This document shows, in pieces, positions 2,365 to 37,033 of a stretch of 64,000 nt of DNA. Origin of the DNA: Mumia sp. ZJ1417. GTDB taxonomy: Bacteria; Actinomycetota; Actinomycetes; Propionibacteriales; Nocardioidaceae. The notes beneath the pieces were generated by a model, which made no database searches, was not told the origin of the DNA, and worked only from the letters and a program-made list of their open reading frames with translations. The stretch covers positions 3,968,001 to 4,032,000 of the forward strand of contig NZ_CP059901.1 in NCBI RefSeq assembly GCF_014127285.1, given 5' to 3'. Position 1 is the stretch's first letter. The number at the start of each line of letters is the position of its first letter. The translations under genes and the position numbers were made by a program.

Positions 2365-2399
2365 TCGAGAATCGGAAAATCCTTGTCCCAGGCGCTCAT
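1947..2399 (-). CDS. 150-residue protein of unknown function, copy A (possible calycin-like fold)
   Basis: I do not recognise a proven function. The protein starts HLGEWEGEYVHLDPDGNEVD and is rich in Trp, Tyr and alternating polar/hydrophobic strands, which suggests a small beta-barrel of the lipocalin/DUF3598 or nitrobindin type; this is an impression only. The ATG overlaps the stop of the upstream ATPase gene (ATGA). A second copy at 24835-25287 is nearly identical in DNA over 418 bp, and a more distant relative lies at 25590-25970. All three sit beside nitrilase-fold genes, so a role in binding or processing the same substrate is plausible. Its codons are noticeably less G+C-biased than those of its neighbours. 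Confidence 0.7.
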   Translation of the reverse strand: MSAWDKDFPILDRHLGEWEGEYVHLDPDGNEVDRHASHLRMWVPEDGSCDIKQINTYTWPDGRQEAVEFPGILKGKDVFFSTDRIEGHMHQSDELTILLTWTYNELLKPGNYLYELIQLSRDGQQKVRTWHWMEEDRLVRRTVIREYKKA

Positions 2400-4425: not shown

Positions 4426-4427
4426 GC

Positions 4428-5993
4428 TCACTCCAGCCGCTGCAGCGATGCCACGTCGAGGCGACCGAGCGCGAGCTGCTCCGGGTCGAGCTCGCTCACG
4501 TCGTTGCGCTGGGCGACGATCAGCTTCGGGTAGACCGGCGGGATCGCGACCGCGTCCTCGGCGAGGATCGTGTTGGCCTGGCGCGTGAGATCCCCACGCT
4601 CCTTGGCGTCGGTGGTCGTCCACGCCTCGTTGAGCAGCTTGTCGAGCTGGTCGTTGGCGTACCCGAAGTTCATCGGGTTGGTGGAGGCGTACGAGGTGAA
4701 CAGCGGGAACGCGCTGTCGCCCGCGCTGACACCGGTGACGAAGGTCGTCATCGACAGCTGGTAGTCACCCTGCATCCACTTGGTCGCCCAGGTGCCTGCG
4801 TCGGTGCTCTCGATCTTGACGCGGATGCCGGCCTTCTCCCAGCCCTGCGCCAGCGCCTCCGCCATCTTCACGGTCGACTCCGAGGAGCTGCTGATGGACA
4901 GCGTGAAGTCGATCCCTTCCGCGTGCCCGGCCTCGGCGAGCAGCTCCTTGGCCTTGTCGACGTCCGGCGTGGTCGGGTAGAGGTCCAGGTCCTTGTCGTA
5001 CGCCTCGAGCGCCGGTCCGGCCGGTCCCTGGGCGGTGTCCGCCGTGCCGGCGTAGACCAGCTCGGAGACGCCGTCACGATCCATCGAGTACGCGAGCGCC
5101 TGCCGCACCCGCTCGTCGTCGAACGGCGCCTTCTTGAGGTTGAAGAAGGTGAGGATGGAGATCGGGGCATCGACCACGTCGACCGACAGCGAGTCGTCCT
5201 TCTCCACGACGCCGACGTTGCTGGCGGGCACGTCGGTCATCACGTCGATCTTGCCCTCGCGCAGGTTGACCAGTCGGGTCCCGGCGTCGGGGACCGCGCG
5301 GAACTCGAGGGTGTCCGCACCCTCGAACTCCTCGCGATACGCCTCGTTGCGGGCGAGGGTGACCGACTGACCCTGCGTCACCTTGTCGATGACGTACGGG
5401 CCGGTGCCAATCGTCGTGTCGTTCTTCTCCAGCGTGGAGCTGTGGATGATCGGCAGGTTGTTCAGGTGCGAGCGGAGGACGCCGTACGGCTGGGCGAGCG
5501 AGATCTCGACCGTCTTGTCGTCCTTCGCCTTCGCCCCCTTCACGAAGTACGCGAAGTAGCTGGTCCAGTCGGTGTACGCCTTCGGGTCGGAGACCTTGTT
5601 GATCACCGCGGCGACGTGGTCCGCGGTCAGCGGGTCGCCGTTCGAGAACGTGACGCCCTCGGCCAGCGTGACGGTCCAGGTCAGACCGTCGGCGGAGATC
5701 ACCGGCTCGGCGGCCGCGAGCTGCGGCACCGAGGTGCCCTTGTCGTCGTACGTGTAGAGCGTCTCGGCGATAGGCGCCGTCACCCACGCGAGGGGGTTGG
5801 TCGTGGCCACGAGGGGGTTGAGGTAGTCGGAGATCGACGGCATGCCGACCACCACGGTGCCGCCGTCGACGGGCTTGCCGGCCACGGCATCGCCGGAGCC
5901 GGAGCTGCAGCTGCAGAGCGCGAGGGCGACGGCGGTGGCGCCGACGACCCCGACTGCGCGACGGCGCAGCGGGCGCGAGGAGAGGGACTTCAT
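4428..5993 (-). CDS. ABC transporter substrate-binding lipoprotein (family 5)
   Basis: This 521-residue extracytoplasmic binding protein belongs to the DppA/OppA (SBP_bac_5) family. A signal peptide (RRR, then a hydrophobic stretch) ends in a lipobox LCSC with the lipidated Cys at residue 29, so it is anchored to the outer face of the membrane. Typical internal features are YTYDDKGTSVPQLAAAEP near residue 85, LTWTVTLAEGVTFSNGDPLT and FNLKKAPFDDERVRQALAYSMDR. It delivers the ligand to the two permeases. This family binds peptides, but also nickel, opines and aromatic acids, so the ligand stays open. A 46-base gap separates it from the upstream permease gene. Confidence 0.93.
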   Translation of the reverse strand: MKSLSSRPLRRRAVGVVGATAVALALCSCSSGSGDAVAGKPVDGGTVVVGMPSISDYLNPLVATTNPLAWVTAPIAETLYTYDDKGTSVPQLAAAEPVISADGLTWTVTLAEGVTFSNGDPLTADHVAAVINKVSDPKAYTDWTSYFAYFVKGAKAKDDKTVEISLAQPYGVLRSHLNNLPIIHSSTLEKNDTTIGTGPYVIDKVTQGQSVTLARNEAYREEFEGADTLEFRAVPDAGTRLVNLREGKIDVMTDVPASNVGVVEKDDSLSVDVVDAPISILTFFNLKKAPFDDERVRQALAYSMDRDGVSELVYAGTADTAQGPAGPALEAYDKDLDLYPTTPDVDKAKELLAEAGHAEGIDFTLSISSSSESTVKMAEALAQGWEKAGIRVKIESTDAGTWATKWMQGDYQLSMTTFVTGVSAGDSAFPLFTSYASTNPMNFGYANDQLDKLLNEAWTTTDAKERGDLTRQANTILAEDAVAIPPVYPKLIVAQRNDVSELDPEQLALGRLDVASLQRLE

Positions 5994-6039
5994 GAGAGCT
6001 CCTGGGGGATGGAGGGGAGGGTGTGGGGGGAACAGGGGT

Positions 6040-6933
6040 TCATCGACGGCCACCGAGAAGCCGCTCGACCTCGTCACCGAGCAGATTGATCCCGATCGTG
6101 ACGAACAGGATCGCCAGGCCCGGTACGACCGAGAGCCACCAGCCGCCGATCATCAGCGAGCTGGTCGCGTCCGAGAGCAGGTTGCCCAGGCTCGCCTCGG
6201 GGGGCTGGATTCCGAGACCGAGGAAGCTGAGTGCGCTCTCGGAGAAGATCGCGATGCCGACCCAGAGGAAGGCCTGCACCAGGACGGGCGGCGCGACGTT
6301 GGGCAGCAGCTCCCCGAGGAGGATGTGGCGGCGCGAGACACCGACGACACGCAGGGCGTCGACGTACTCCTCCTGGACCTCGACGAGCGTCGCCGCGCGG
6401 GTGACGCGGGCGAAGAACGGGAGGAAGGACACGGCGAGGAGCAGCACGACCTTGGCCTCGGGCGCGAGCGTGAGCGGGCCGATCTCGCTGGATCCGGTCC
6501 CTGTCATGCCGACCACGAAGAGGGCGAGGACGAACACGGGCAGCGCCTGGAGGGCTTCCATGACCCGCATCAGGAGGTCGTCCACCCACGTGCCGCCGCG
6601 GTAGCCGGCGAGCAACCCGATCGGGACCGCCACCACGAGCCCCGCGACGACCGAGCACACCGCCACGATGAGCGAGAGCCGTGCACCCACCGCCGTACGG
6701 GCGAACAGGTCGCGCCCCAGGTCGTCGGTGCCGAACCAGTGCGCAGCGCTCGGGGGCTCCAGCGGGCCGCCGGTGCGCTCGTTCGGCGGCAGCGAGATCA
6801 GCGGGCCGACGAGCGCGAGCAGGCAGAAGACGAGGACGAGGACGAAGCCGACCCAGCCGAGCGCGCTCATCTGAGGAAGGCGCAGCCTGATCCGCCGGCG
6901 GCTGACGCGGGTGGGCATGGTGGTCGCACTCAT
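6040..6933 (-). CDS. ABC transporter permease (DppC/OppC type)
   Basis: This 297-residue inner-membrane subunit has an N-terminal helix of the OppC type (MSALGWVGFVLVLVFC), then a periplasmic/cytoplasmic segment with WFGTDDLGRDLFAR, and about five further membrane helices. The EAA loop that contacts the ATPases is ALRVVGVSRRHILLGELLPN. Its ATG at 6933 overlaps the stop of the DppB-type gene (ATGA), so the two permeases are translated together. It forms the translocation pore with the product of 6930-7898. Confidence 0.93.
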   Translation of the reverse strand: MSATTMPTRVSRRRIRLRLPQMSALGWVGFVLVLVFCLLALVGPLISLPPNERTGGPLEPPSAAHWFGTDDLGRDLFARTAVGARLSLIVAVCSVVAGLVVAVPIGLLAGYRGGTWVDDLLMRVMEALQALPVFVLALFVVGMTGTGSSEIGPLTLAPEAKVVLLLAVSFLPFFARVTRAATLVEVQEEYVDALRVVGVSRRHILLGELLPNVAPPVLVQAFLWVGIAIFSESALSFLGLGIQPPEASLGNLLSDATSSLMIGGWWLSVVPGLAILFVTIGINLLGDEVERLLGGRR

Positions 6934-7898
6934 CGAGCCGTGCCTCCGAGGAACTGGGCGCGGATGCGCGGGTCGATCGCGAAGTAGAGCAGGTCGACGA
7001 CCAGCGTGGCGATGAGGAAGGCACCCGCCGTCCAGACCGTCGCGGCGATCGCGACGGGGTAGTCGTGCGCGAGGAAGGAGCTCACGACGAGCTGGCCGAC
7101 CCCCGGCACGTTGAAGACGTTCTCGACGAGGACCGCACCACCGATGAATGTCCCGAGCATCATGCCGACGACGGTGACGGTGGGGATCACGGCGTTGCGG
7201 AGCGCGAGCCGCGAGAGCAGCGTGCGCTCGCGCAGTCCCATCGCGCGTCCGAACCTGACGTGGTCGGCGCCGAGCGCCTCGATCATGGACGCGCGCAGCG
7301 TACGGGCGATGACGGCCGACGCGGCGAGGCCCAGCGTGAAGGCGGGGAGCACCATCGACTGGAGATGGAGTCCGGCCCCCTCACCCCACGTCGCCCAACC
7401 CGAGCTCGGGAGCACCCCGGGCAGGTAGAGGCCGAAGATGAGGACGAGCACGAGGCCGAGCCAGAAGCTGGGCACGGAGAGGGCGATCACGCTGCCGACC
7501 CGGACGATCGCGTCGAGGGAGCCTCCGCGGCGCGCGCCGGCCAGGGCGCCGAGCAGCATGCCGATCGCGGTCCAGATCACGAAGGCGGTCAGACCCAGCT
7601 CCAGCGTCACCAGCATCCGGTCACCGAGGAGCTCGGAGACCGGCGTCTGCGTCGTCAGCGACTCGCCGAGGTCGAACGTGACGATGTTGCAGACGAACGT
7701 GAGGTACTGAGCCCACAGCGGGCGGTCGAGGCCGAGCTGTTCGAGCACCGCAGCCCGCTTCTCCGGGGTGGGGTTGTTGCCGAGGTACGCGGTTTCCGGG
7801 CCGCCGGGCGCGGCATGCAGCATGAGGAAGACGAGGGTCAGGACGAGGAAGAGAACGATCACGGCACCGCCCATACGCCGCATCAGGTACGACAACAT
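6930..7898 (-). CDS. ABC transporter permease (DppB/OppB type), first gene of importer operon
   Basis: This 322-residue permease has six predicted membrane helices. The first starts at residue 10 (GGAVIVLFLVLTLVFLML), followed by the PGGPETAYLG segment usual in DppB. The EAA loop is ADHVRFGRAMGLRERTLL. The ATG at 7898 is preceded by GAGAGGAGG-like sequence; the longer upstream reading would cross the operator. It is the promoter-proximal gene of a seven-gene unit (permeases, binding protein, ATPases, 150-residue protein, nitrilase-fold protein). A putative IclR operator lies 35 bases upstream. Confidence 0.92.
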   Translation of the reverse strand: MLSYLMRRMGGAVIVLFLVLTLVFLMLHAAPGGPETAYLGNNPTPEKRAAVLEQLGLDRPLWAQYLTFVCNIVTFDLGESLTTQTPVSELLGDRMLVTLELGLTAFVIWTAIGMLLGALAGARRGGSLDAIVRVGSVIALSVPSFWLGLVLVLIFGLYLPGVLPSSGWATWGEGAGLHLQSMVLPAFTLGLAASAVIARTLRASMIEALGADHVRFGRAMGLRERTLLSRLALRNAVIPTVTVVGMMLGTFIGGAVLVENVFNVPGVGQLVVSSFLAHDYPVAIAATVWTAGAFLIATLVVDLLYFAIDPRIRAQFLGGTAR

Positions 7899-7932
7899 TC
7901 GGCCTCCTCTCTCACGGTTTTGTTCCGCTGTC

Positions 7933-7947
7933 TGAAATACTGTTTCG
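7933..7947 (-). promoter_or_regulatory. Putative IclR-type operator, importer operon
   Basis: The sequence TGAAATACTGTTTCG is a degenerate copy of the 15-bp dyad found before the other catabolic units (TGGAACRCYGTTYCA). It lies 35 bases before the dppB-type start, where a repressor or activator would act on the promoter. Confidence 0.6.
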
Positions 7948-8030
7948 GTAACACTAAGGTCGGCAGGACCGGTTCGGAATAAAGTCAGACAAAAGCGGGG
8001 CGCCTCCCGCCGGGGCCGCCGAAGACGACG

Positions 8031-8079
8031 CACGCGCCCCCGGGACGACCGCCGTGTGCGGCCGACTCGAGGGCGCGTG
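8031..8079 (-). terminator. Likely terminator of the acyl-CoA operon
   Basis: The arms CACGCGCCC (8031-8039) and GGGCGCGTG (8071-8079) are perfectly complementary and enclose a smaller hairpin (GACCGC/GCGGCC). The structure lies about 40 bases past the stop of the acyl-CoA dehydrogenase gene, the last gene of its operon. No clear T-run follows, so it may work with Rho. Confidence 0.5.
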
Positions 8080-8120: not shown

Positions 8121-9299
8121 CTAACCGACGACGGTCTCGCCGGTGGTGAGGGACTTCGCGACGACGGTCCGAAGGATGTCGTTCGTGCCCTCGCCGATGC
8201 TCATGAGGATCGCGTCGCGGTAGAGCCGCTCGACCTCGAACTCGGTGGAGTAGCCGTAGCCGCCATGGACCTTCATGGCGTCGATCGCAGCCTGGAGGGC
8301 GACCTCGGAGCAGAAGATCTTGGCCATCCCGGTGGCGCCGTCGGCGCGCCCGTTGCGGACGGCGTCGGCGGCCCAGTACGCCATGAGGCGGGCAGCCTGG
8401 ACCTGGGTGCCGAGCTCGCCGAGCTTGAGCTGGATCGCCTGGAACTCGGAGATCGGCTTGCCGAAGGCGTGCCGCTGCTGCGCGTAGGCGAGGGCTTCGT
8501 CGTGGGCGCGTTGGGCGATGCCGACCGAGCGCGCCGCGATGTTGACCCGGCCCCACTCCAGCGCCGACAGGACCTGCTGCATGCCGCGACCCTCGATGCC
8601 GCCGACGAGTTGGCTCACCGGCACGTGGACGTCGTCGAGCAGGATCTCGCAGGACTCCGTGCCCTTGTAGCCGAGCTTGGGGATGTCCTTGGTGACGGTG
8701 AAGCCGGGGGTGTCGGCCTCGATGAGCAGCACGCTCATGCCCTTGTGCGCCGGCGTCGCGGTCGGGTCGGTCTTGACCAGCACCGGGAGCGGGTCGGCGT
8801 AGCGGGCGTTGGTGATCCACATCTTCGCGCCGTTGACCACGTAGTACGGCTCGCTGCCGTCGTCGGGGGTGACCAGGCGGGCGGTGGTGCGGATGCCCTG
8901 CAGGTCCGTGCCGGCATCGGGCTCGGTCAGCCCGATGCCGGAGCGACGCTTCCCGGTCGCGAGGTCGGGTAGGTACTTCTCCTTCTGCGCGTCGGTGGCG
9001 TGCATCGCGATCAGCCGGCACGCCAGGGAGTGGCTGCCGAGGATGCCGGCGATGCCCATCCAGCCGCGCGCGATCTCCTCGAACACCAGCGCGAAGGAGA
9101 CGGGGTCCAGGTCGAGGCCGCCGTACTGCTCAGGGACCGTGATGCCGAACAGGCCCATGTCGGCCATCCCGGCGACGATCTCGGTCGGGTACCGGCCGGA
9201 CTGCTCCCAGTCGCGGGCCACCGGAACGATCTCGTTGTCGACGAACTGCCGCAGCAGCGCCTTGAACTCGCGCTGGTCCTCGTCGAGCTCGAACTTCAT
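8121..9299 (-). CDS. Acyl-CoA dehydrogenase
   Basis: This 392-residue FAD flavoenzyme introduces an alpha,beta double bond into an acyl-CoA. It shows the N-terminal helical domain (LDEDQREFKALLRQFVDNEI), the middle beta domain with GIGLTEPDAGTDLQGIRTTA, and the C-terminal helical domain with YGYSTEFEVERLYRDA. The catalytic base Glu is in IGEGTNDILR, the usual place for short/medium-chain enzymes. The ATG at 9299 overlaps the stop of the DUF35 gene (ATGA). It is the last gene of the operon starting at 17236 and would feed the MaoC hydratases encoded upstream. The acyl chain is unknown. Confidence 0.93.
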   Translation of the reverse strand: MKFELDEDQREFKALLRQFVDNEIVPVARDWEQSGRYPTEIVAGMADMGLFGITVPEQYGGLDLDPVSFALVFEEIARGWMGIAGILGSHSLACRLIAMHATDAQKEKYLPDLATGKRRSGIGLTEPDAGTDLQGIRTTARLVTPDDGSEPYYVVNGAKMWITNARYADPLPVLVKTDPTATPAHKGMSVLLIEADTPGFTVTKDIPKLGYKGTESCEILLDDVHVPVSQLVGGIEGRGMQQVLSALEWGRVNIAARSVGIAQRAHDEALAYAQQRHAFGKPISEFQAIQLKLGELGTQVQAARLMAYWAADAVRNGRADGATGMAKIFCSEVALQAAIDAMKVHGGYGYSTEFEVERLYRDAILMSIGEGTNDILRTVVAKSLTTGETVVG

Positions 9300-9751
9300 C
9301 GGGTCTCCTCGGTCGGGATGGTGGGGGCGCCGCCCTCGGTCACGAAGCGGGCAAGGGCACGGCCGTCGGGAAGGTCGGTCCAGGCGACGGTGACCGCGTC
9401 CCCGAGGGCCCACGACTCGGGATCGTCGTGGCCGTCGAGGCGCGTGAGCACGAGTGGCCCCTCGGCCAGCCGCACCCGCGCGAGCACGTACGGCACCGGG
9501 ACGTCCGGGCGCGGGGCGCGGTGGACGACGGTGAAGGTGTCGACGCTGCCGGCACCTGAGGTGTCGACCTGGGCGAGCGCGTCGGTGCCGCCGCACCCGG
9601 TGCACAGCGCACGCGGCGGGTGCTGATGGTGGCCGCAGGTGCCGCACCGCTGGACGGTGAGGCGGTGCTCGCGCGTGGCGTCCCAGTAGGCCGCGGTGAC
9701 CTCGTCCGCGGGCGGGACGTCATCGGGGACCCAGCTGCTCGGCGTGGTCAT
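9296..9751 (-). CDS. DUF35 / Zn-ribbon OB-fold protein
   Basis: This 151-residue protein has an N-terminal rubredoxin-like zinc ribbon with two Cys pairs (RCGTCGHHQ and CTGCGG) and a C-terminal OB-fold (DTFTVVHRAPRPDVPVPYVLARV). Proteins of this family partner with thiolase-like enzymes; in steroid side-chain degradation the DUF35 domain of ChsH2 binds the aldolase Ltp2. The gene sits directly downstream of a thiolase-like gene and overlaps it by four bases, so a heteromeric aldolase is the natural inference. It has no catalytic role by itself. Confidence 0.85.
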   Translation of the reverse strand: MTTPSSWVPDDVPPADEVTAAYWDATREHRLTVQRCGTCGHHQHPPRALCTGCGGTDALAQVDTSGAGSVDTFTVVHRAPRPDVPVPYVLARVRLAEGPLVLTRLDGHDDPESWALGDAVTVAWTDLPDGRALARFVTEGGAPTIPTEETR

Positions 9752-10893
9752 CGATCGCCTCCCAGGACGACGGTGGCGTGGGTGGACAGGATGCCGCCGG
9801 TGCCGTGCGCGACCGCGATCTCGGCGTCCGGCACCTGCCGTTCACCGCACTCGCCGCGCAACTGGCGGACGGCCTCGACGAGCAGCAGGACTCCGTACTG
9901 GCCCGGGTGGCAGTACGACAGCCCGCCACCGCTGGTGTTCAGCGGGAGCGAGCCGCCGGGACGGATCGTGCCGTCGGCGATGAAGTCGAGCACCTCGCCC
10001 GGGCCGCAGAAGCCGAGCGCCTCGACCGACAGCGCCGCGGTGATCGTGAACGAGTCGTACACCTCGAGCACGTCGACGTCGGCAGCGGTGATCCCCGCGC
10101 GGGCGAACGCGTCCGCGCCTGCTCCGGCGGCACCGGGACGAGTGAGGTCGTCGACCGCGGTGAACGACGTGTTGGTGGTGCGCTCGCCGTAGCCGAGCAC
10201 CTGCACCGGCTTCTGGCGAAGGTCGCGGGCACGCTCCAGCGAGGTCAGCACCACCGCGCCGCCGCCGTCGGTGACCAAGCAGCAGTCCGCGGCGGTCAGC
10301 GGCGAGGAGATCATCGTGGAACCGACGACGTCGTCGACGGTGAGCGAGCCCTTGCCGTAGCGGAACGCCTTCGGGTTGAGCAGTGCCCACTCGCGGGCGG
10401 CGACCGCGATCTCGGCGAGCTGCTCACGGGTCTTGCCGTAGCGGTCGAGGTACTGCCGGGCGGCCATCGCGTAGTACGACAGCGGATAGAGGATGTCGTA
10501 CGGCTCCTCGAACTGCGCCTCAGGGATCCACGGCTCGTGGACGCCGCCGAGCTTGCGCGAGCGCGCCGAGCGTTGGTTGGACGCGAACGAGATCACCACG
10601 ACCTCGCACTGCCCGGCCTCGATCGCCTGGGCTGCGCGGGCGACGAACATCTCGAAGGCCGATCCGCCGGCGAACGTCGAGTCCGTCCACGTCGGCACGA
10701 TCCCGAGGTAGTCGGCCAGCTGCGTGGCGGAGAACCGCGAGATCCCGGTGGTCGCGATCCCGTCCACGTCGAACAGGCTCAGGCCGGCGTCAGCGAGCGC
10801 GCGCGTGACCGCCTGGGTCTGGAGGCCGAGGATCGACAGGTCGGTCACCCCGAGGTCGGACTCGGCGGCACCGACGATCGCGACCCCGCTCAC
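9748..10893 (-). CDS. Thiolase-superfamily protein, likely Ltp2-like retro-aldolase
   Basis: The 381-residue protein is related to SCP2-type thiolases, but the nucleophilic Cys is missing: the segment where Cys precedes the Ser-Gly loop reads STFAGGSAFE, with Phe74 at that position. The C-terminal Cys loop reads HGTGGILS. The oxyanion His is kept (SYCHPGQYG, His329), as is the EVYDSFT motif (Tyr279). Loss of both Cys residues is the pattern of Ltp2-type aldolases, which cleave beta-hydroxyacyl-CoA to an aldehyde or ketone plus a shorter CoA ester. Adjacent DUF35 and MaoC genes support this. Both ends overlap neighbours by four bases. Confidence 0.82.
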   Translation of the reverse strand: MSGVAIVGAAESDLGVTDLSILGLQTQAVTRALADAGLSLFDVDGIATTGISRFSATQLADYLGIVPTWTDSTFAGGSAFEMFVARAAQAIEAGQCEVVVISFASNQRSARSRKLGGVHEPWIPEAQFEEPYDILYPLSYYAMAARQYLDRYGKTREQLAEIAVAAREWALLNPKAFRYGKGSLTVDDVVGSTMISSPLTAADCCLVTDGGGAVVLTSLERARDLRQKPVQVLGYGERTTNTSFTAVDDLTRPGAAGAGADAFARAGITAADVDVLEVYDSFTITAALSVEALGFCGPGEVLDFIADGTIRPGGSLPLNTSGGGLSYCHPGQYGVLLLVEAVRQLRGECGERQVPDAEIAVAHGTGGILSTHATVVLGGDR

Positions 10894-11351
10894 GGGCGCC
10901 CGGTCCCGTCGGTGCGGCCGAGCAGCACCCGAGCCGAGGCGGGCTTGACCGCATACCGGTCGTCGGCGCCGCCGACCCCGAGGATGGTGACCGTCATCGT
11001 CACGTCGACCGTCGGTGCGGTCGGGTCTGCGTCGTCGACCGCGACGACCTCGCCCTCACAACGGATCGTCTCGCCGGCGAACATCAGGTTGCGGAACGAG
11101 AAGTCGAGCGTCTGGACGAAGCAGTCCGGTCCGAGCCCGTCCTGCAGCATCTCGACCAGGTACGCACCGAAGACCTGACCGTCGACGATCGGACCCGGCA
11201 GGCCCTTGGCCGCCGCGTACTCGGGGTCGTAGTGAAGGCGGTGCCAGTCCCAGGTGGCGCCGGCGTACGCGACCATGTCGGTCAGCGTGATCGTGCGCTC
11301 CAGCGGGGCGATCGCGTCGCCCACCGCCGGCCGATCCGGACTCGCGCTCAC
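10890..11351 (-). CDS. MaoC-like hydratase (C-terminal half type)
   Basis: This 153-residue hot-dog protein contains the hydratase-2 type signature DWHRLHYDPEYAAAKGLPGPI, with Asp and His at the usual catalytic places. It probably forms a heteromer with the FAS1-like half encoded just upstream (11348-11848), as in ChsH1-ChsH2 pairs, and adds water to an enoyl-CoA. The ATG at 11351 overlaps the upstream stop by four bases, and its own stop overlaps the aldolase start. The order hydratase, hydratase, aldolase, DUF35 matches steroid side-chain gene order. Confidence 0.85.
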   Translation of the reverse strand: MSASPDRPAVGDAIAPLERTITLTDMVAYAGATWDWHRLHYDPEYAAAKGLPGPIVDGQVFGAYLVEMLQDGLGPDCFVQTLDFSFRNLMFAGETIRCEGEVVAVDDADPTAPTVDVTMTVTILGVGGADDRYAVKPASARVLLGRTDGTGRP

Positions 11352-11848
11352 GCTGCGCCTCCCAACGAGATGAAGATGAGCGTCTCCTCGTTCTCGGCCA
11401 GGAACTCGCCGTCCTGGTTCGTGTACGTCACACGCGAGCCGACGACCAGCATGTCAGCGCCCGCGCGGTTGGTCTTCTCGGTCGCGTCGGTGATCTCCCA
11501 CGTGGCGGTGACGACGTCGTCGGGACGGATCCGGCGCCCGAACACATACCGGTTGCCACCGCGCACCTGCCGCGTCCCCGGGAGCTCCAACCCCCACGTG
11601 TGCCCGGCGTAGCCCTCGGCGTCGGCGGGCAGCGCGGCGTACTGGTTGGTCTCGCACACCAGGGTCGGCGGGAGGGTCACTCCCGCCAATCCGTGGCTTC
11701 GCGCGAACTCGGGATCGGAGTACAAAGGGTTGTCGTCTCCGATCGCGAGCCCGAAGTAGCGGCCGGCCGCAGCCCCGAAGGCCTCAGGCGCCGTGTAGAC
11801 GCGCCGGGTCCCGACCAGCGCGCGGATCTCGTCGGTGAGCAGACCCAC
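11348..11848 (-). CDS. FAS1-like dehydratase / MaoC N-terminal domain protein
   Basis: This 166-residue hot-dog protein shows the N-terminal MaoC-type features FGLAIGDDNPLYSDPEFARS and a long central helix. It lacks the full catalytic loop of the partner at 10890-11351, as expected for the substrate-binding half. I chose the GTG at 11848 because GAGGAGG lies just upstream and overlaps the stop codon of the RidA gene at 11850-11852. The protein begins with GLLTDEIRALVGTRRV. It likely pairs with the next gene to form an enoyl-CoA hydratase. Confidence 0.82.
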   Translation of the reverse strand: MGLLTDEIRALVGTRRVYTAPEAFGAAAGRYFGLAIGDDNPLYSDPEFARSHGLAGVTLPPTLVCETNQYAALPADAEGYAGHTWGLELPGTRQVRGGNRYVFGRRIRPDDVVTATWEITDATEKTNRAGADMLVVGSRVTYTNQDGEFLAENEETLIFISLGGAA

Positions 11849-11849
11849 G

Positions 11850-13073
11850 TCAGGCCTCCTCGCCGTCGTGCGCCTCGGGGTAGAGCGCGGTCGGGAACAC
11901 CTCGAGCAGGAACTCCGGACGCAGCAGCCCCTGGCAGATCGCCCCGGTCGAGGACGGCCACGGCGGGGAGAGGAGCCGCTCGCGCACACCCGCGACCGCA
12001 CGGTAGTCGCCCAACGCGGACTCGACGCAGTACTCCGTCGTCTCCAGCAGGTCGGTCGGTCCGAGCCCGGCGTGGGCGAGGAGCTCGAGGATGGCCCCGT
12101 ACGTGACCTCCGCCTGCGCGCCGATGTCGCCCGGGTGGAGCGCCTCCTGCGTCTTCATGTCCAGCGCGGCGAACCCCGACATGAACAGCGTGCGTCCCGC
12201 CCGCACGCCCGGCGCGTAGGTGAGGGTGTCGTAGCGGTCCCAGCCCGGGTTCACCAGCTCCAGCGGGTGGCGCGACGCCGTGACGTCGATCGCCACCAGC
12301 TGGCCGTCCTGGTGCAGCCGGCTCATCAGGATGCCGCCGGCGCCGGGGTAGACGCCCGCGCCTCCCAGCAGCTCCTTGCGGACCCGGTGCGTCGACCGGT
12401 AGACGTCACGCGTCTCCGGCGTCGAATAGTCGAAGGTCGTGACGGCGTTGTCGAGCGAGAGCCCGACCCCGCGGAGCAGGCCGTCCGCCTTCTCCAGGCA
12501 GTAGCGGTACTGAGCGGCGAAGTCGCCAGGTGCAACGAGGTCGCCGTGCTCGTCGACCGGCACCACGGTCGGCAGGTAGACGGTGCCGTCGTGGCCCTCG
12601 GTGATGCTCGACGCCTGCCAGGTGCCGGCCTCACGCGCCTCGCTCGCGACCCGCAGCTGCTCGCCGCCGCCCTTGACCGCGTGCAGCTCGACCTCGAGCC
12701 ACGCCGCGCGTCGGACCAACCGCTCCACCACGACCGTCCGCACGGTCGCGTGCTCGCCCAGCAGCTCGCGCCGCACCCCGGCCGCCGTCTCGTACTCGGG
12801 CAGACCGGCGATCGTCACGTTCTCGCTCACCCGCGTGACGTCGGCCGGACCGAAGCCGGCCGCGTCGAGGATCGCGAGGCACTTCTCGTACGCGATCCGC
12901 GCCTGCTGCTCCATCGTGCCCTGGACGGTCATCTTGCCGACGGCGGGATCGTGCCGGGCCGAGGTGTGACCCGAGGTCCACGCGGCATCCCCTTCGCTGA
13001 GTCCCAGACAGAAGGTGAAGCCCTCGTACGGGAACCAGGGGAAGTGCTCGGGTCGGATAGCGGACAGGGTCAT
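11850..13073 (-). CDS. Triple RidA (YjgF/YER057c/UK114) domain protein
   Basis: At 407 residues this is about three times a normal RidA. Domain 1 spans about 30-140 (WTSGHTSARHDPAVGKMTVQ to WLEVELHAV). Domain 2 spans about 150-275 (YLPTVVPVDEHGDLVAPGDF to LVAIDVTAS). Domain 3 spans about 285-400 (LFMSGFAALDMKTQEALHPG to EFLLEVFPTAL). RidA proteins hydrolyse reactive enamines/imines, and some family members are hydrolases or lyases in N-heterocycle and aromatic amine catabolism. Domain 3 keeps the Arg-Pro-x-Phe-x-x-Glu end; domain 2 is the most divergent. The ATG at 13073 overlaps the MmgE/PrpD stop by four bases. Confidence 0.82.
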   Translation of the reverse strand: MTLSAIRPEHFPWFPYEGFTFCLGLSEGDAAWTSGHTSARHDPAVGKMTVQGTMEQQARIAYEKCLAILDAAGFGPADVTRVSENVTIAGLPEYETAAGVRRELLGEHATVRTVVVERLVRRAAWLEVELHAVKGGGEQLRVASEAREAGTWQASSITEGHDGTVYLPTVVPVDEHGDLVAPGDFAAQYRYCLEKADGLLRGVGLSLDNAVTTFDYSTPETRDVYRSTHRVRKELLGGAGVYPGAGGILMSRLHQDGQLVAIDVTASRHPLELVNPGWDRYDTLTYAPGVRAGRTLFMSGFAALDMKTQEALHPGDIGAQAEVTYGAILELLAHAGLGPTDLLETTEYCVESALGDYRAVAGVRERLLSPPWPSSTGAICQGLLRPEFLLEVFPTALYPEAHDGEEA

Positions 13074-14452
13074 GGGGCGCCCTCCTCGGACGATGCGGGT
13101 ACGGCGGCCGTCTCGGCCGCCAGGGAAAGCAGTGTGGAGAAGTCAGGCGCCTGCGGCAGCGCTTGCACGGCAGCAGCGAGGCGCTCGGCGCCCGGGCCGA
13201 CGTTGCCCTCGAGCTTGGCGAACAACGCCTCGTCACTGAGCGGGGCGGAGCCGCCCCCGGGGCTGCGGTCGACGTGACCGGCGACCGTACGGCCGTCGGC
13301 GAGGGTGAGGACGACGTCGCCGGCGGCGTCCGCCGCGACCCCGTCGCCCGGTGTGAGGTCCCAGGTGACGCGCGCCGCGAGTCCGGTGATGTCGGCACGG
13401 TCCAGGTTGTCGGGGTCGTACGTGTCGGTGCCGACGCGGCCATCGAGGAGCATCACGGCCACGCTCCACGGCAGGCTGAACTTCGCCGCGTACGGGCTTG
13501 CCGGGCGGGTGAGGTCTCGGTCGGGAGCGCACACGACCGAGGCCGAGTCGGGGTGGACGCCCGCCCGTACGGCGACGATCTCGTCCACGCTCGCCCCTGC
13601 CCGCGCGAGCGCGTCCTGCGCGGCCGCCATCGTGGCGTGCGCGAGCTGGCAGGTCGGCCAGGGCTTGATCCCGATCTGGGTCGTCTCCCACCGCTCCCCC
13701 AGCGCGTCGACGATCGACGACGGTGTCGCGACGCCTTCGCTCAGGGCGTCGAAGACGCCGTCCGGGCCGTCGAAGACGGTCTCGGGGCCGGTCGCGCCGG
13801 CGGCTGCCAGCCGTGCCGCGAGGATGCCGGCCTGCGAGGCGAGGCCGGGGTGGAGCTGCTTGGTGCTGGCCCCCGTCGCGAGGAAGGCCAGCAGCCCTCC
13901 CGCCTGACTGCCGGCGATGCCCAGCGCGTGGCACGTGGTCGTCGCGTCCAGGCCCATGAGCCGGGAGGCCACCGCCGCGGAGGAGAACACGCCGGCGACC
14001 ATCGTCGCGTGCAGCCCGCGCCGGTGGAACCCGTGCGGGGCCGCCGCGGCGACGCGGCAGGCGACCTCGTAGCCGACGATCGCGGCGTCGAGCACCGCGC
14101 GACCGGTGGCGCCGCGCTCCTCGCCGACGGCGAGCGCCGCCGGGAGGACGACGGCCGTGGCGTGCACGAGCCCGCCTGCGTGGGTGTCGTCGAAGTCGAG
14201 GGCGTGGACGAGCGTCCCGTCCGCGAGCGCCGCCGCAGGAGCGGACACCCGCGTCGACGTCCCGAGGATGGTCGCCTCAGGTGGCCCGCCCAGCCCACCT
14301 GCCACCTCGACGGCAGGACGCGCCGCGCCGGTGCGCGCGGCCGCGATCGCGTTGCCGAGACCGTCGAGGAGGTGGCGCAGCGCCGCCGCGTCGACCTCGG
14401 CGGGCGCGTCGAGCGGCGCGACCACCCAGCGGGCCAGCTCGGGGGCGATCAT
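13070..14452 (-). CDS. MmgE/PrpD family protein (copy 1)
   Basis: The 460-residue protein belongs to the 2-methylcitrate dehydratase / cis-aconitate decarboxylase superfamily. Recognisable blocks are HALDFDDTHAGGLVHATAVVLPAALA (position about 80-105), GFHRRGLHATMVAGVFSSAA, GLASQAGILAARLAAAG and KPWPTCQLAHATMAAA. These enzymes lack cofactors and act on tricarboxylates, but most members in catabolic clusters are uncharacterised. The ATG at 14452 shares one base with the CoA-transferase stop. A second copy lies at 34688-36163, also next to a class III CoA-transferase. Confidence 0.85.
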   Translation of the reverse strand: MIAPELARWVVAPLDAPAEVDAAALRHLLDGLGNAIAAARTGAARPAVEVAGGLGGPPEATILGTSTRVSAPAAALADGTLVHALDFDDTHAGGLVHATAVVLPAALAVGEERGATGRAVLDAAIVGYEVACRVAAAAPHGFHRRGLHATMVAGVFSSAAVASRLMGLDATTTCHALGIAGSQAGGLLAFLATGASTKQLHPGLASQAGILAARLAAAGATGPETVFDGPDGVFDALSEGVATPSSIVDALGERWETTQIGIKPWPTCQLAHATMAAAQDALARAGASVDEIVAVRAGVHPDSASVVCAPDRDLTRPASPYAAKFSLPWSVAVMLLDGRVGTDTYDPDNLDRADITGLAARVTWDLTPGDGVAADAAGDVVLTLADGRTVAGHVDRSPGGGSAPLSDEALFAKLEGNVGPGAERLAAAVQALPQAPDFSTLLSLAAETAAVPASSEEGAP

Positions 14453-15663
14453 CAGTCGGTCCCGGGGGCGCCGAACGCGCCCGCGGCGGCCAGCTCGGCG
14501 ACCTTGTCGGCCGACAGACCGAGCAGGCCGCCGACCACGTCGTCGAAGTGCTCGTTGCGCTGCGGCGCCCGGACGTAGTCGGGGATCTCCGAGCCCACGC
14601 GCACGGGCGACGACAGCTGGGTCACGGTGCCGTAGCGCGGGTGCTCGGTCTCGACCAGCAGGTTGCGCGCCACGGTGTGCGGCTCCTTCAGTGCCGCCGC
14701 CACGTCGTTGATCGGCCCGCACGGGATGGACGCCGCGTAGCACTCTCCGAGCCACTCGTCGATCGTGCGGGTCTTGAAGATCTCCTCGAGCGCCCCGACC
14801 ACCTCGTCCTTGTGCTGCTGGCGCAGCGCGAACGTCGCGTACGGCGACCCCTCCTCGGCCCACTCGGGGTGGCCGACGACGACCGCGAGACGGGCCCAGA
14901 ACTTCTCCTTGGCGCAGCCCACGACGAACCAGCCGTCGGAGGCCTCGAACGCCTGGAACGGCACCAGCGACGGGTGCGCCGAGTGGCGCGTCCGCACCGG
15001 CTCGAAGCCCGCGTTGAGGTGCCACGTGGCCGGATAGGTGAGCATCGACATCGCCGTGTCGTACAGGCTGACGTCGCAGTCCATGCCGACACCGTCACGG
15101 CGAGCCGCGTGCAGACCGACCATCATCGACAGCGCGGCGACGTAGCCACCGGAGAAGTCGACGAGCGACAGGCCTGACTTCGTCGGTGGGCCGTCGGGCT
15201 CACCGGTCAGGTCCATCCAGCCGGCCAGACCCTGCAGCACGTAGTCGTAGCCGGGCTCCTTCTGGCGGGGACCGGTCATGCCGAATCCGGTCAGCGAGCA
15301 GCAGACGATCGCCGGGTTGAGGTGCTTGAGCTGGTCGTACGTGATGCCGATCTTTTCCGGCACGTCGCCGCGCAGGTTGGAGTAGACGACGTCGGCGACC
15401 TTCACCAGCTCCTCGAAGACCTCCCGCCCGGCGGGCGTGGAGATGTCGAGCGACAGCGAGCGCTTGTTGCGGTTGAAGGTCTCGAAGAAGAGCGAGTCCT
15501 CCTCCTCGGCGTACGGCGGGACGTAGCGGCCGACGTCGCCGCCGACCCGCGGGTCCTCGATCTTGATGACCTCGGCGCCGAGGTCGGCGAGGTGGACGCT
15601 GCCGAAGGGGCCGGCGCCGTACTGCTCGAGCGAGATGATCCTGACGTCCTGCAGCGGCTTCAC
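14452..15663 (-). CDS. Class III CoA-transferase (CaiB/BaiF family, copy 1)
   Basis: The 403-residue enzyme would move CoA from one acid to another. The N-terminal Rossmann-like block VRIISLEQYGAGPFGSVHLA and the motif NRNKRSLSLD are typical. Asp169 in GLSLVDFSGG corresponds in position to the catalytic Asp of formyl-CoA transferase, which forms the anhydride intermediate. The ATG at 15663 overlaps the LLM gene stop. It shares its operon with hydratases and an aldolase, so it probably activates the substrate or recycles CoA from a product. The acids are unknown. Confidence 0.92.
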   Translation of the reverse strand: MKPLQDVRIISLEQYGAGPFGSVHLADLGAEVIKIEDPRVGGDVGRYVPPYAEEEDSLFFETFNRNKRSLSLDISTPAGREVFEELVKVADVVYSNLRGDVPEKIGITYDQLKHLNPAIVCCSLTGFGMTGPRQKEPGYDYVLQGLAGWMDLTGEPDGPPTKSGLSLVDFSGGYVAALSMMVGLHAARRDGVGMDCDVSLYDTAMSMLTYPATWHLNAGFEPVRTRHSAHPSLVPFQAFEASDGWFVVGCAKEKFWARLAVVVGHPEWAEEGSPYATFALRQQHKDEVVGALEEIFKTRTIDEWLGECYAASIPCGPINDVAAALKEPHTVARNLLVETEHPRYGTVTQLSSPVRVGSEIPDYVRAPQRNEHFDDVVGGLLGLSADKVAELAAAGAFGAPGTD

Positions 15664-16703
15664 GAACGACCTCCGGTGATGTGCGCGATGAGTTCGATGA
15701 TCCGGTCCTGGGCCGCACGGGTCTCCGCCGCCGCGATGCCGTGGGTCGGCGGGCTGAGCTTGACCGCGTCGGCGAGCCCGTCGTACGCGTGGATCCGCTC
15801 GGCGACCCGCTCGACGTCACCGGTGAGGGTCAGCGCGTCGACCATCTGGTCATCGACCGCGTCGGCCAGGTAGTCGGCGCCCTTGCCGGAGCGGAAGGCG
15901 TCGATCACCTGCTGCTGCTCGTCGGCGAGCCCATGGAAGGCGAAGAAGTCGGCGTACGTCCGCACGCTCGCGTAGAACCCGACGAGTCCCGCCACCCGCC
16001 GCGTCGCGACCTGGTGGTCGGGGTCGACCGAGCAGCAGGCCGACACGACGAGCTCGATGTCCTTGCGCGTGCGTCCCTCGACCGCGTCGATCCCGGCCTC
16101 GATCTCGGGCAGGATGCGCTCGGCGAGGTAGGACGGGGAGCACAGCTCGTGGCTGATCCACCCGTCGCCGATCCGGCCGGCCAGGCGGGTCATCGCCGGA
16201 CCCATGGCCGCGAGATAGATGGGGATGTCCGGGCGCACGATCGGGTACGGGCGCTCGTAGCCGCGGATCCGCATCGGCTCCCACTCGCCCTCGAGGTCGA
16301 TCGGCTCCCCGGTCGTCGCGGTCGCCCAGAAGTGGCGGATGTTGCGGACGGTCTCGCGGAGGTGACCCACCGGCTTGCCCCAGCGGGCGTGGTGCCAGTC
16401 CTCGTTGAGCCGCTGCACGCCCGTGCCGAGCCCGAGGACGAACCGTCCTCCCGACAGCTCGTCGAGGTCGAGCGCCTCGAGCGCGGTGACCATCGGGCTG
16501 CGGGTGAACGCCAGCGCGATCGCCGTGCCGATCTGGGCCGTCTCGGTCGCTGCGGCGATCGCGGCCGCGCTCACGGTCGCCGAGCGGTGCAGCTCGGGGA
16601 CCCACAGTGCCTCTGCCCCAGCCTGCTCGGCCCGCCGCGCAGCATCGGCCAGCTCGTCGAGGGTCTCGCCCCACGGGGCGTACGTGATCCGCATCCGACT
16701 CAC
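15660..16703 (-). CDS. LLM-class (luciferase-like) flavin-dependent oxidoreductase
   Basis: This 347-residue TIM-barrel enzyme belongs to the bacterial luciferase-like group, which uses FMN or coenzyme F420. Features are WVPELHRSATVSAAAIAAAT, then IGTAIALAFTRSPMVTALEA, GGRFVLGLGTGVQRLNEDWH and YLAAMGPAMTRLAGRIGDGW. The closest resemblance is to F420-dependent actinobacterial members. It may hydroxylate or reduce an intermediate. The start ATG at 16703 overlaps the MaoC stop (ATGA). F420 use is inferred only from the family and the likely host. Confidence 0.88.
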   Translation of the reverse strand: MSRMRITYAPWGETLDELADAARRAEQAGAEALWVPELHRSATVSAAAIAAATETAQIGTAIALAFTRSPMVTALEALDLDELSGGRFVLGLGTGVQRLNEDWHHARWGKPVGHLRETVRNIRHFWATATTGEPIDLEGEWEPMRIRGYERPYPIVRPDIPIYLAAMGPAMTRLAGRIGDGWISHELCSPSYLAERILPEIEAGIDAVEGRTRKDIELVVSACCSVDPDHQVATRRVAGLVGFYASVRTYADFFAFHGLADEQQQVIDAFRSGKGADYLADAVDDQMVDALTLTGDVERVAERIHAYDGLADAVKLSPPTHGIAAAETRAAQDRIIELIAHITGGRS

Positions 16704-17236
16704 GCGCCGGCGAACGGCGTGTTGTCGGTCAGCGCGACCTTGCCCTCAGGGAAGACCCCTTCGAGCTGCTCGACGCCGCGCCGGTAGACGTAGAACGTCC
16801 GCTTGAACGAGCAGACCTCGTCGCCGTCCTGGTTCACCGTCCGCGTCTTCACGGTGACGATCCCGGCGTGCGGCCGCGAGGCCGACTCGCGCTTCTCCAG
16901 GACGAGCGACTCGCTATAGAGCGTGTCACCGGCGAAGACGGGGTGCGTCATCCGGATCTCGTCCCACCCCAGGTTGGCGAACGCGTTCTGGGTGATGTCG
17001 GTGACGCTCTGCCCGACGGCGATCGCGACCGTCAGCGTCGAGACCACCAGGGGCTTGCCGAACTCCGACTTCTTCGCGTACTCGGAGTTGAAGTGCATCT
17101 GGTTCGTGTTCATCGTCATCAACGAGAACGAGATGTTGTCGTGCTCGGTCACCGTCCGCCCCAGCGGGTGCTGGTAGACGTCTCCGATCTCGAAGTCCTC
17201 GAAGAATCGTCCGGTCCAACCCGTCTTCACGCCCAC
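16700..17236 (-). CDS. MaoC-family dehydratase, first gene of acyl-CoA operon
   Basis: The 178-residue hot-dog protein shows RFFEDFEIGDVYQHPLGRTV followed by TEHDNISFSLMTMNTNQMHF, the R-hydratase signature of mesaconyl-CoA/enoyl-CoA hydratases (Asp and His). It would hydrate an unsaturated acyl-CoA. I took the GTG at 17236, with GAAGGGAG about 6-12 bases upstream; a second in-frame GTG lies at 17230. It leads a ten-gene operon. Upstream lie a putative IclR operator (17317-17331) and a weaker GntR-type site. Confidence 0.9.
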   Translation of the reverse strand: MGVKTGWTGRFFEDFEIGDVYQHPLGRTVTEHDNISFSLMTMNTNQMHFNSEYAKKSEFGKPLVVSTLTVAIAVGQSVTDITQNAFANLGWDEIRMTHPVFAGDTLYSESLVLEKRESASRPHAGIVTVKTRTVNQDGDEVCSFKRTFYVYRRGVEQLEGVFPEGKVALTDNTPFAGA

Positions 17237-17316: not shown

Positions 17317-17331
17317 TGGAACGCCGTTTCA
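17317..17331 (-). promoter_or_regulatory. Putative IclR-type operator, acyl-CoA operon
   Basis: TGGAACGCCGTTTCA matches the shared dyad and is identical to the copy at 32043. It overlaps the last codon and stop of the upstream GntR gene and lies about 80 bases before the MaoC start, in the promoter region of the ten-gene operon. Confidence 0.7.
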
Positions 17332-18069
17332 GTGCGAGCGGTAGACGCCGCGCAGCCTGATGAGGTGCTCCGCCATCAGCCGGGCCGCCTCCTCGGCGTC
17401 CTGCTCGGCGATCGCCACGAAGATCGCCTCGTGGTCCTCGTCGACCCCGGCGTACGCGTCCTCGACGACTCCGGGCTCGAGAAACTGCGCCCGCAGGACC
17501 CGGAACACTGGCTCGGCGACGATCGACAGCATCGGGTTCTGGGCCGCCTCGACGATCACCTGGTGGAACGTGCGATGCTCGACGAAACGCCCCTCGCGGC
17601 CGCGCGACACGAGTTCGCGGTCGAGCGCATCGCGCAGCGCAGCCAGGTGCGCGTCCTCGCGCCGGCTGGCCGCCAGCCGGGCCGACGGCACCTCGAGGAT
17701 CTCGCGCGCCTCGAGCATGTCGTGCAGCGAGAGGCGGTCGCGGCCGGTCATCAGCCCGAGGCTCGCCTCCAGCAGCGCGGACACGTGCTCGGCGACGACG
17801 TCGCTGACGAACGTCCCCCCGGTGACCCCGCGACGGGTCTCGACGAGGCCTTGCGAGGACAGCACGCGCAGCGCCTCGCGCACGGTGCTGCGGCTCACGC
17901 CGAAGTGCACGACCATCTCGGCCTCGCTGGGCAACCGGTCGCCCGACACCAGCTCGCCGCGCAGGACGAGCGTGCGCAGCTGGTCGGCGACCTGCTGGTA
18001 GGCAGGCTTGACCCGGTTCACCGCCAGGGCCGCGGCCGGCAACCGCTTCTCCTCGCCTGGCTCGCTCAC
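17329..18069 (-). CDS. FadR/GntR-family transcriptional regulator (second)
   Basis: This 246-residue regulator has a winged helix at about residues 20-90 (PSEAEMVVHFGVSRSTVREA, then LRVLSSQGLVETRRG) and a helical FCD ligand domain at about 105-230. Candidate metal ligands are in HRTFHQVIVEAA. The GTG at 18069 overlaps the stop of the cupin gene (GTGA), so it is co-translated with the cupin. This argues that the regulator senses a compound handled by the cupin or the flanking acyl-CoA operon. The downstream acyl-CoA operon starts 93 bases past its stop. Confidence 0.9.
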   Translation of the reverse strand: MSEPGEEKRLPAAALAVNRVKPAYQQVADQLRTLVLRGELVSGDRLPSEAEMVVHFGVSRSTVREALRVLSSQGLVETRRGVTGGTFVSDVVAEHVSALLEASLGLMTGRDRLSLHDMLEAREILEVPSARLAASRREDAHLAALRDALDRELVSRGREGRFVEHRTFHQVIVEAAQNPMLSIVAEPVFRVLRAQFLEPGVVEDAYAGVDEDHEAIFVAIAEQDAEEAARLMAEHLIRLRGVYRSH

Positions 18070-18650
18070 GAGAGCACGCTCCCCTCCGGCGCGACGGCCG
18101 TCCGCCACACCACCTCGTCCGCCGACCCTCCGGGCCACTGCTCGCGCGAGGAGGACCACCACCGCCGGTCGAACCCGTCCGAGCCGGCGGGCCATCGCGA
18201 GACGGAGCCGGCGGACCACTGGGCGACCGGGGTACGGACAGGCAGGGCCTCGGCCAGCGTCCAGACGTCCAGCCCGGCATCCGGGTCGGCGTCGAACCGC
18301 TCCGCGTGCACGAAGTCCGGCGCGCCGCCGAACCAGACCAGCACCTCGCACGCTCGCGGCGCCACGAGCTCCCGGCGAAGCCTGCGCGCGCCGACGTGGA
18401 CCAGGGAGCCGGCGCCGATCTCGATCCCGTCGAGCACCAGCCCGCCGGAGAGGACCACGAACTCCTCGGCCGCGGCGTACCCGCCCTCGGCCGTCCTCGC
18501 GAACCCGGCCGGGAACCGCCCACGCAGGGCGAACGGCGCGCTGGCGCCGGCCAGCGCCACCGCGTCGATCGGGCCGTTGGCGCCCGGCATCGGCACCGGA
18601 CGCCACGACGGTCGCTCGCGCGTCAGGGAAGTGCTGGCCGGACGTGGCAT
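18066..18650 (-). CDS. Cupin-domain protein (paralogue 1)
   Basis: This 194-residue protein has a cupin-like core: a strand region ending in FPAGFARTAEGGYAAAEEFV, then VLSGGLVLDGIEIGAGSLVH, then CEVLVWFGG. The Glu pair in AAEEFVVLSG is where cupins bind metal, but the His residues usual in metal sites are scarce. I chose the ATG at 18650 because CGGAGA lies about 7 bases upstream. It is clearly homologous to the next gene (18747-19325). Possible roles are an acid decarboxylase, a ring-opening enzyme or a sensor. The function is not assigned. Confidence 0.7.
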   Translation of the reverse strand: MPRPASTSLTRERPSWRPVPMPGANGPIDAVALAGASAPFALRGRFPAGFARTAEGGYAAAEEFVVLSGGLVLDGIEIGAGSLVHVGARRLRRELVAPRACEVLVWFGGAPDFVHAERFDADPDAGLDVWTLAEALPVRTPVAQWSAGSVSRWPAGSDGFDRRWWSSSREQWPGGSADEVVWRTAVAPEGSVLS

Positions 18651-24830: not shown

Positions 24831-24834
24831 AAGA

Positions 24835-25252
24835 TCACGCCTTCTTGCGCTCGCGGATGACCGTGCGGCGCACCAGACGGTCCTCCTCCATCCAGTGCCA
24901 CGTACGCACCTTCTGCTGACCATCACGACTCAGCTGGATCAGCTCGTACAGATAGTTCCCCGGCTTCAACAGCTCGTTGTACGTCCACGTCAACAAGATC
25001 GTCAGCTCATCGGACTGGTGCATGTGCCCCTCGATCCGATCGGTCGAGAAGAACACATCCTTCCCCTTCAGGATCCCAGGAAACTCCACCGCCTCCTGAC
25101 GACCATCAGGCCACGTGTACGTGTTGATCTGCTTGATGTCACACGAACCGTCCTCCGGCACCCACATCCGCAGATGCGACGCATGACGATCAACCTCGTT
25201 GCCATCGGGATCCAGGTGGACGTACTCGCCCTCCCACTCACCAAGGTGACGG
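24835..25252. repeat. Direct repeat, copy B (418 bp)
   Basis: This is the partner of 1947-2364, in the same orientation and 22,888 bp away. The two copies could recombine and delete the entire acyl-CoA operon, ligase and iclR between them. Confidence 0.9.
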
Positions 25253-25287: not shown

Positions 25288-25317
25288 CGTTCGTTCCTCT
25301 CTTCAGAGGTCGCGTCC

Positions 25318-37004: not shown

Positions 37005-37033
37005 GTGCTCCTCGTCGAGTACGGGGCGCGGCG

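Follow-up and report, generated by a model that had tools for sequence, protein, structure and literature searches.

The window analysed here, a stretch of 64,000 nucleotides from Mumia sp. ZJ1417, carries on its minus strand ten genes in the order RipB-like hydratase, luciferase-like (LLM) oxidoreductase, CoA transferase, MmgE/PrpD family protein, a protein with three Rid modules (3x-Rid), two MaoC-type proteins (MaoC-a and MaoC-b), thiolase-fold protein, DUF35 protein and acyl-CoA dehydrogenase (Table 1). When the starts of the MmgE/PrpD, MaoC-a and acyl-CoA dehydrogenase genes are placed at 14452, 11848 and 9299, seven of the nine junctions are overlaps of 4 bases, one is an overlap of 1 base, and a gap of 1 base separates 3x-Rid from MaoC-a. 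The operon is followed immediately, on the same strand, by genes of a dipeptide-type ABC transporter (2396-8033; SBP_bac_5, two permeases and two ATPases). Among the 24 other loci compared below, its binding protein and permeases had no match at an E-value of 1e-12, and its ATPases had matches in a single locus (L001).

Table 1. Features of the 3x-Rid locus, in window coordinates
Feature	Position	Strand	Remarks
GntR/FCD regulator, upstream of operon	17329..18606	minus	putative start
MaoC-type hydratase (RipB-like)	16700..17236	minus	best NCBIfam RipB/Ich, 200 bits, below cut-off 340
Luciferase-like (LLM) F420-type oxidoreductase	15660..16703	minus	best NCBIfam TIGR03617, 211 bits, below cut-off 278
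Class III (CaiB-type) CoA transferase	14452..15663	minus	Pfam, NCBIfam
MmgE/PrpD family protein	13070..14452	minus	ATG at 14452; scanned as 13070-14455; stop overlaps 3x-Rid start by 4 bases
3x-Rid gene	11850..13073	minus	ATG to TGA, 407 aa; three PF01042 stretches and AlphaFold2 model
Module 1 (residues 1-138)	12660..13073	minus	Rid fold; V111 at Arg105 place, E127 cleft Glu, R101 at position 91
Module 2 (residues 150-270)	12264..12626	minus	degenerate Rid; A245 at Arg105 place, A261 at cleft Glu place, Thr at Gly31 place, R232 at position 91
Module 3 (residues 271-402)	11868..12263	minus	S375 at Arg105 place, E391 cleft Glu, Y286 at Tyr17 place, R364 at position 91
FAS1-dehydratase/MaoC-type protein (MaoC-a)	11348..11848	minus	GTG at 11848
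MaoC-type protein (MaoC-b)	10890..11351	minus	Pfam
Thiolase-fold protein	9748..10893	minus	NCBIfam NF004811 acetyl-CoA acetyltransferase, 455.9 bits, above cut-off 421
ChsH2-type zinc ribbon and OB fold (DUF35) protein	9296..9751	minus	Pfam
Acyl-CoA dehydrogenase	8121..9299	minus	ATG at 9299

A sequence-only reading of this DNA had proposed that three RidA modules are joined in one 407-residue chain, and this arrangement is borne out by three lines of analysis. The Pfam family PF01042 matches the protein in three stretches (E 5.9e-22; 78.4 bits, with the cut-off at 27.3), and no other Pfam family appears at E-values up to 0.1. No NCBIfam model scores above its cut-off, the best being TIGR00004 with 51.4 bits against 106.25. 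Profiles obtained by splitting the alignment of homologues (A1, 18 rows) into three all match Rid sequences when run against the sequences of the PDB, with best E-values of 2.8e-12, 6.4e-9 and 1.1e-11 for modules 1, 2 and 3. The same reading had named the prediction of the monomer's structure as a check, and had held that it would fail if there were only two modules or if the middle segment had a different fold. Three units are found by Pfam, by the profiles and in the AlphaFold2 model, and the profile and listed PDB matches of module 2 are of Rid type. The three Rid modules are real, and the middle one is a Rid module as well.

The full-length AlphaFold2 model, built on A1, shows one compact chain in which three units, each with two helices, follow one another (mean pLDDT 90.1, pTM 0.91); residues 145-150 and 402-407 fall below a pLDDT of 50. 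Module 2 modelled alone gives a weak prediction (pLDDT 74.4, pTM 0.71), and its 50 listed PDB matches have TM-scores of about 0.5-0.67 at an rmsd of 5-8 Å. These matches are entries of Rid/YjgF type, one of them (3i3f) being titled only as a hypothetical protein.

Among the PDB rows listed, the closest structural matches of the whole chain are chorismatases. Among the best 50 of 757 Foldseek rows, six chorismatase chains rank first (E 1.2e-14 to 4.2e-13) and are followed by Rid chains that each match one module. The best whole-chain match of VIA-align, in which a fifth or more of the rows span residues 268-402 only, is the chorismatase chain 5ag3_B (Z 25.5, rmsd 3.1, 287 residues aligned), with residues 28-397 of the model placed on 9-340 of that chain. 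By this match the chain as a whole has a chorismatase-like fold, and all whole-chain matches among the PDB rows listed are chorismatases. Identity over the structural match is 15-18%, and a comparison of the A1 profile with the chorismatase Hyg5 gave an E-value of 0.11 over 67 profile positions, which does not place 3x-Rid in the chorismatase sequence family. Since the aligned ends 397 and 340 are paired, E391 falls opposite Glu334 of Hyg5, each six residues before the aligned end, by a count from the end points that assumes the numbering of the entry to be that of the paper; Glu334 is described as the catalytic acid of Hyg5 (PMC7170507).

These comparisons bear on the earlier suggestion of a built-in asymmetric trimer. 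Both the AlphaFold2 model and the whole-chain chorismatase match are consistent with a predicted trimer-like unit formed by a single chain and lend support to this part of the proposal; the accompanying idea of up to three active sites fares differently, as the cleft residues described below indicate.

The modules of 3x-Rid are nearest to each other in hhalign comparisons (modules 1 and 3, E 1.7e-18; modules 2 and 3, 1.8e-16; modules 1 and 2, 7.9e-10). A tree from a quick search (96 rows, 130 columns), whose rows were picked by similarity and come mostly from one phylum, has a branch that sets all 32 module rows apart from the others, with an SH-aLRT value of 94, just under the program's mark of 95; each module set has its own branch at or above that mark. 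Three separately recruited Rid domains are held less likely because the tree groups the module rows in this way, and tandem triplication within one lineage most likely gave rise to the chain.

A second triple Rid open reading frame, of 406 amino acids, was found in another genome (G249, locus L124, 1492-2712, minus strand) and is placed elsewhere in the tree. Its modules share a branch of 94 with one single-domain row, and the three alone join at just 59. Its Arg105 places are all replaced (T, V and L), and in the alignment used two of its three modules have an arginine at position 91, the position discussed below. The adjoining open reading frames presumably encode an ABC permease and an M20 peptidase. 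The tree placement supports at least two origins for triple Rid chains.

The active-site cleft of RidA is lined by Tyr17, Gly31, Asn56, Asn88, Arg105, Pro114 and Glu120, the last of which reaches across the subunit interface (PMC1884159), and deaminase activity goes with Arg105 in published accounts (PMC8113886, PMC5619798). In the alignments of the module profiles, Arg105 falls on V111, A245 and S375, so that none of the three modules has the arginine of a RidA-type imine deaminase. We tallied the cleft residues over ten of the 18 rows of A1, and over nine for module 1, where one homologue (L018) is too short. The Arg105 place is held by V in six rows and L in three in module 1, by A in nine and N in one in module 2, and by S in nine and V in one in module 3. 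About 10% of RidA proteins are reported to carry serine at this place (PMC4433059), and module 3 with its S375 therefore resembles a known variant.

The Glu120 equivalent is present in modules 1 and 3 and is an alanine in module 2: the tally is E in 9/9 rows for module 1, A in eight, S in one and Q in one for module 2, and E in nine and G in one for module 3. Over all 18 rows, one homologue (L016) lacks the module-3 glutamate. The Gly31 place is G in all nine rows of module 1, T in eight and S in two of module 2, and G in all ten of module 3. Its Tyr17 counterpart is F in 9/9 rows of module 1, is divided in module 2 among W (seven), F (one), Y (one) and a gap (one), and is Y in nine and Q in one of module 3. 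Because module 2 has lost the cleft glutamate, at most two clefts keep it. The conservation check on Arg and Glu put forward by the sequence-only reading thus comes out divided, with the arginine in no module and the glutamate in 9/9, 0/10 and 9/10 rows of modules 1, 2 and 3, and the expectation of as many as three RidA-type active sites is not supported.

An arginine is conserved at another place in each module. Position 91, three residues past the Asn88 place, is arginine in 9/9, 10/10 and 10/10 rows of the three modules (R101, R232 and R364); across all 18 rows of A1, R101 is nearly invariant and the other two do not vary. All three residues lie in helices of the AlphaFold2 model, and from helix geometry we infer that this arginine would reach the cleft.

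The two arginines do not occur together in the Rid domains that we compared. Among 64 other Rid domains collected by similarity, 22 have Arg91 and 7 have Arg105, never both. After addition of 25 domains, each the best PF01042 match of its genome, the 89 domains comprise 28 with Arg105 only, 22 with Arg91 only, none with both and 39 with neither. The Fisher p-value of 1e-4 is only a guide, because the sample is non-random, related rows were counted separately, and position 91 is uncertain in a few rows with insertions (for example L019, L152 and L155-L157). Relocation of the arginine is no general rule, since just 22 of the other domains that lack Arg105, 61 in all, carry Arg91. Another sizeable group of Rid proteins combines histidine at position 91 with the absence of Arg105, in whose place it mostly has A, S or T; it may represent a further cleft type.

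A scan of contigs identified 18 loci with 3x-Rid in other genomes, including Nocardioides, Mumia, Micromonospora, Hamadaea and several metagenome-assembled genomes (MAGs); one locus filed under Ectothiorhodospiraceae is a MAG contig whose host is uncertain. The three nearest homologues are 82-84% identical, and the exception to full-length matching, L018, covers residues 104-399 only. An assembly fusion or frameshift artefact is ruled out because a full-length or nearly full-length open reading frame recurs in 17 of the 18 loci (L004 and L005 belonging to a single genome) and in all six genomes of the genus, the source genome included. One congener has a single in-frame TGA within its 3x-Rid match (G003:C1:571770-572993), which may be a true stop. 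Of the 58 genomes searched, the other 52 have listed matches to one module or part of one, or no match. A phylum-wide sample of 396 genomes, with few candidates scored per genome, contained four with a match at E-values up to 1e-20, the source genome among them. None of the 11 plasmid records that matched 3x-Rid covered 80% of the protein.

The genes around 3x-Rid are conserved with it. All ten occur in the order of the window in 17 of 24 loci, several of which belong to one genus and two of which (L004 and L005) are from one genome. By gene, homologues were found in 21 (RipB-like hydratase), 22 (LLM), 22 (CoA transferase), 22 (MmgE/PrpD), 24 (3x-Rid), 22 (MaoC-a), 22 (MaoC-b), 22 (thiolase-fold), 21 (DUF35) and 20 (acyl-CoA dehydrogenase) of these loci. 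Contig ends truncate L004, L009 and L014, the LLM gene is missing from L016, and L041 has divergent hydratase and LLM genes.

In two loci, L039 and L040, the LLM gene is the only operon-gene homologue found beside 3x-Rid, and nitrilase-type and aldehyde dehydrogenase genes that match window genes at 23490-26998 lie nearby. The LLM link may mark only a shared class of pathway, because L040 also has unrelated MaoC-type and enoyl-CoA hydratase genes near the LLM gene. The window contains two closely similar open reading frames about 23 kb apart (1947-2399 and 24835-25287, the second matching Pfam DUF3598_N), the former near a nitrilase-type gene (926-2038) and the latter next to one for an aldehyde dehydrogenase (23490-24926); in L039 and L040, homologues of this DUF3598_N, nitrilase and aldehyde dehydrogenase set adjoin 3x-Rid. 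A second pair, an open reading frame that matches the MmgE/PrpD genes of other loci together with a CaiB-type CoA transferase, is located at 34688-38329 beside an amidohydrolase gene (33199-34662), and L042 and L043 have homologues of this pair downstream of the operon.

Together, the thiolase-fold and DUF35 genes, the MaoC pair and the dehydrogenase suggest that an acyl-CoA is dehydrogenated, hydrated and cleaved, either thiolytically or by a retro-aldol reaction. By eye, the thiolase-fold protein has no cysteine in the expected nucleophile stretch. It has YDSF where Ltp2 has YDHF, the corresponding motif of Sal being YDCY (PMC12329534). Because of these two features it is possibly a retro-aldolase, against its NCBIfam name. 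Itaconate-like, steroid-side-chain-like and nitrogen-compound pathways were weighed, and the neighbouring genes single out no substrate among them. No paper titled on this gene set was found in the CC-licensed PMC literature.

The setting agrees with the earlier proposal of a pathway enzyme rather than a housekeeping deaminase: the operon is conserved, with the MmgE/PrpD gene directly upstream of 3x-Rid and two MaoC-type genes directly downstream. A separate Rid gene with the classic arginine elsewhere in the same genome (L019) was also counted for a pathway role.

Triple Rid architecture is already known. The fusion is not new because 3x-RidA proteins, a subset of RidA proteins with three RidA domains in tandem, were named in 2015 with EF_0115 of Enterococcus faecalis as an example and were presumed to form covalently linked trimer units (Niehaus et al. 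2015, PMC4433059); our search of the CC-licensed PMC literature for triple Rid proteins yielded, besides this paper, one on DUF71/COG2102. The protein studied here shares the tandem arrangement in one chain, as seen by Pfam, the profiles and the model, but differs from what is described as a RidA subset in lacking Arg105 and in belonging to a ten-gene operon of CoA type. To the known architecture the present analysis adds that the deaminase signature is missing from every module, that another arginine is conserved, and that the gene belongs to this operon.

Two other families offer parallels. The chorismatases Hyg5 and FkbO (PDB 5ag3, 5a3k and 4bps) resemble 3x-Rid in their single chain, in the whole-chain match and perhaps, by the end-point count, in the late glutamate, but they are about 70 residues shorter and have another genomic setting, besides the distance in sequence noted above. 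The cyanuric acid hydrolase AtzD, with its Toblerone fold, likewise has three concatenated YjgF-like units per chain and was proposed to stem from such a concatenation (Peat et al. 2013, PMC3758960). Its site is in a central barrel with a proposed Lys42/Ser85 dyad (PMC3758960), whereas the modules of 3x-Rid are still plain PF01042, the sole family in Pfam at E-values up to 0.1, which gives no membership in the AtzD/barbiturase sequence family. AtzD was absent from the 50 rows listed in each of the Foldseek and VIA-align comparisons, a result with which an AtzD likeness would still be compatible.

Our leading interpretation, to which we assign a probability of roughly 45%, is a single-chain trimer-like Rid enzyme of a CoA-dependent catabolic operon, with chemistry other than that of RidA, Arg91 in place of Arg105 and at most two clefts with glutamate. 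After tandem triplication, the three modules would have become asymmetric as they folded into the predicted unit: the cleft glutamate persists in modules 1 and 3 (E127 and E391), and module 2, having lost it, would probably be mainly structural. R101, R232 and R364, one helix turn past the Asn88 place, could take over the binding of a carboxylate or substrate from Arg105. The protein most likely would act next to the LLM oxidoreductase in CoA-dependent catabolism, on a substrate that the LLM enzyme may make or that may be passed to the CoA transferase. In one or two clefts the glutamate might then protonate or hydrate an enol, enamine or unsaturated acid, and the substrate could hydrolyse or tautomerise before or after CoA transfer. 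Such a mode would be nearer to that of a chorismatase, with one chain and a glutamate acid, than to that of RidA.

The strongest rival, which we regard as unlikely but serious, is that the chain forms a covalently linked Rid trimer and has remained a deaminase, its substrate being a pathway imine or enamine and Arg91 standing in for Arg105, in a role like that of RutC. The partner of RutC, RutA, is an LLM enzyme. RutC itself, a 3-aminoacrylate deaminase, is described as the pathway Rid of the rut operon (PMC8113886) and so provides a precedent for a catabolic operon with a Rid protein of its own; in Cupriavidus (L048) a single Rid with Arg91 and the motif PAST adjoins an LLM gene, and the window contains nitrogen-handling genes, namely two CN_hydrolase genes, an amidohydrolase and a threonine dehydratase-type gene. 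RutC differs, however, in having a catalytic Arg104 (PMC8113886) and a single domain, in a chain of 134 residues in the PDB. Rid4-7, which lack Arg105, had yielded no deaminase activity in the account of 2021, in which the R104A mutant of RutC is inactive (PMC8113886), and in our judgement no other gene of the operon points to nitrogen chemistry.

The absence of Arg105 from every module, with most cleft residues of module 2 changed, would also suit a non-catalytic protein, such as a scaffold, a binding or regulatory protein, a ligand sensor or a holder of a reactive intermediate. We consider this quite improbable: nearly every homologue, down to 47% identity, retains Arg91 and the glutamates of modules 1 and 3, the exception being L016 for the module-3 glutamate, and a mere binder would not need to retain an acid-base residue. 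A true chorismatase, with chorismate as its substrate, is very improbable despite providing the best whole-chain fold match, given the Hyg5 profile result, the identity of 15-18%, PF01042 as the only Pfam family and an operon that resembles CoA catabolism and not aromatic biosynthesis. The best reading is the pathway enzyme set out above, without RidA-type imine deaminase activity, its substrate and reaction being proposals. It probably has a job other than the usual detoxification, because the classic arginine is missing three times and the gene belongs to a conserved breakdown-pathway set.

A bolder and doubtful extension of this pathway-enzyme reading is that the arginine has moved from position 105 to 91 in all modules, one cleft has been shut, and a new non-deaminase reaction in a CoA-dependent pathway has arisen as a third solution beside chorismatase and AtzD. 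If true, this would be another new enzyme made by joining three Rid units, as in those two families. In 2015 the Rid4-7 subfamilies, which have no Arg105, were described as mysterious (PMC4433059), and 3x-Rid offers a tractable case for such proteins: the conserved residues of its three modules can be mutated module by module within one chain, and its conserved gene set limits the chemistry to be considered. Should Arg105 and Arg91 prove mutually exclusive in broader sampling as well, Rid proteins could be sorted by a simple rule.
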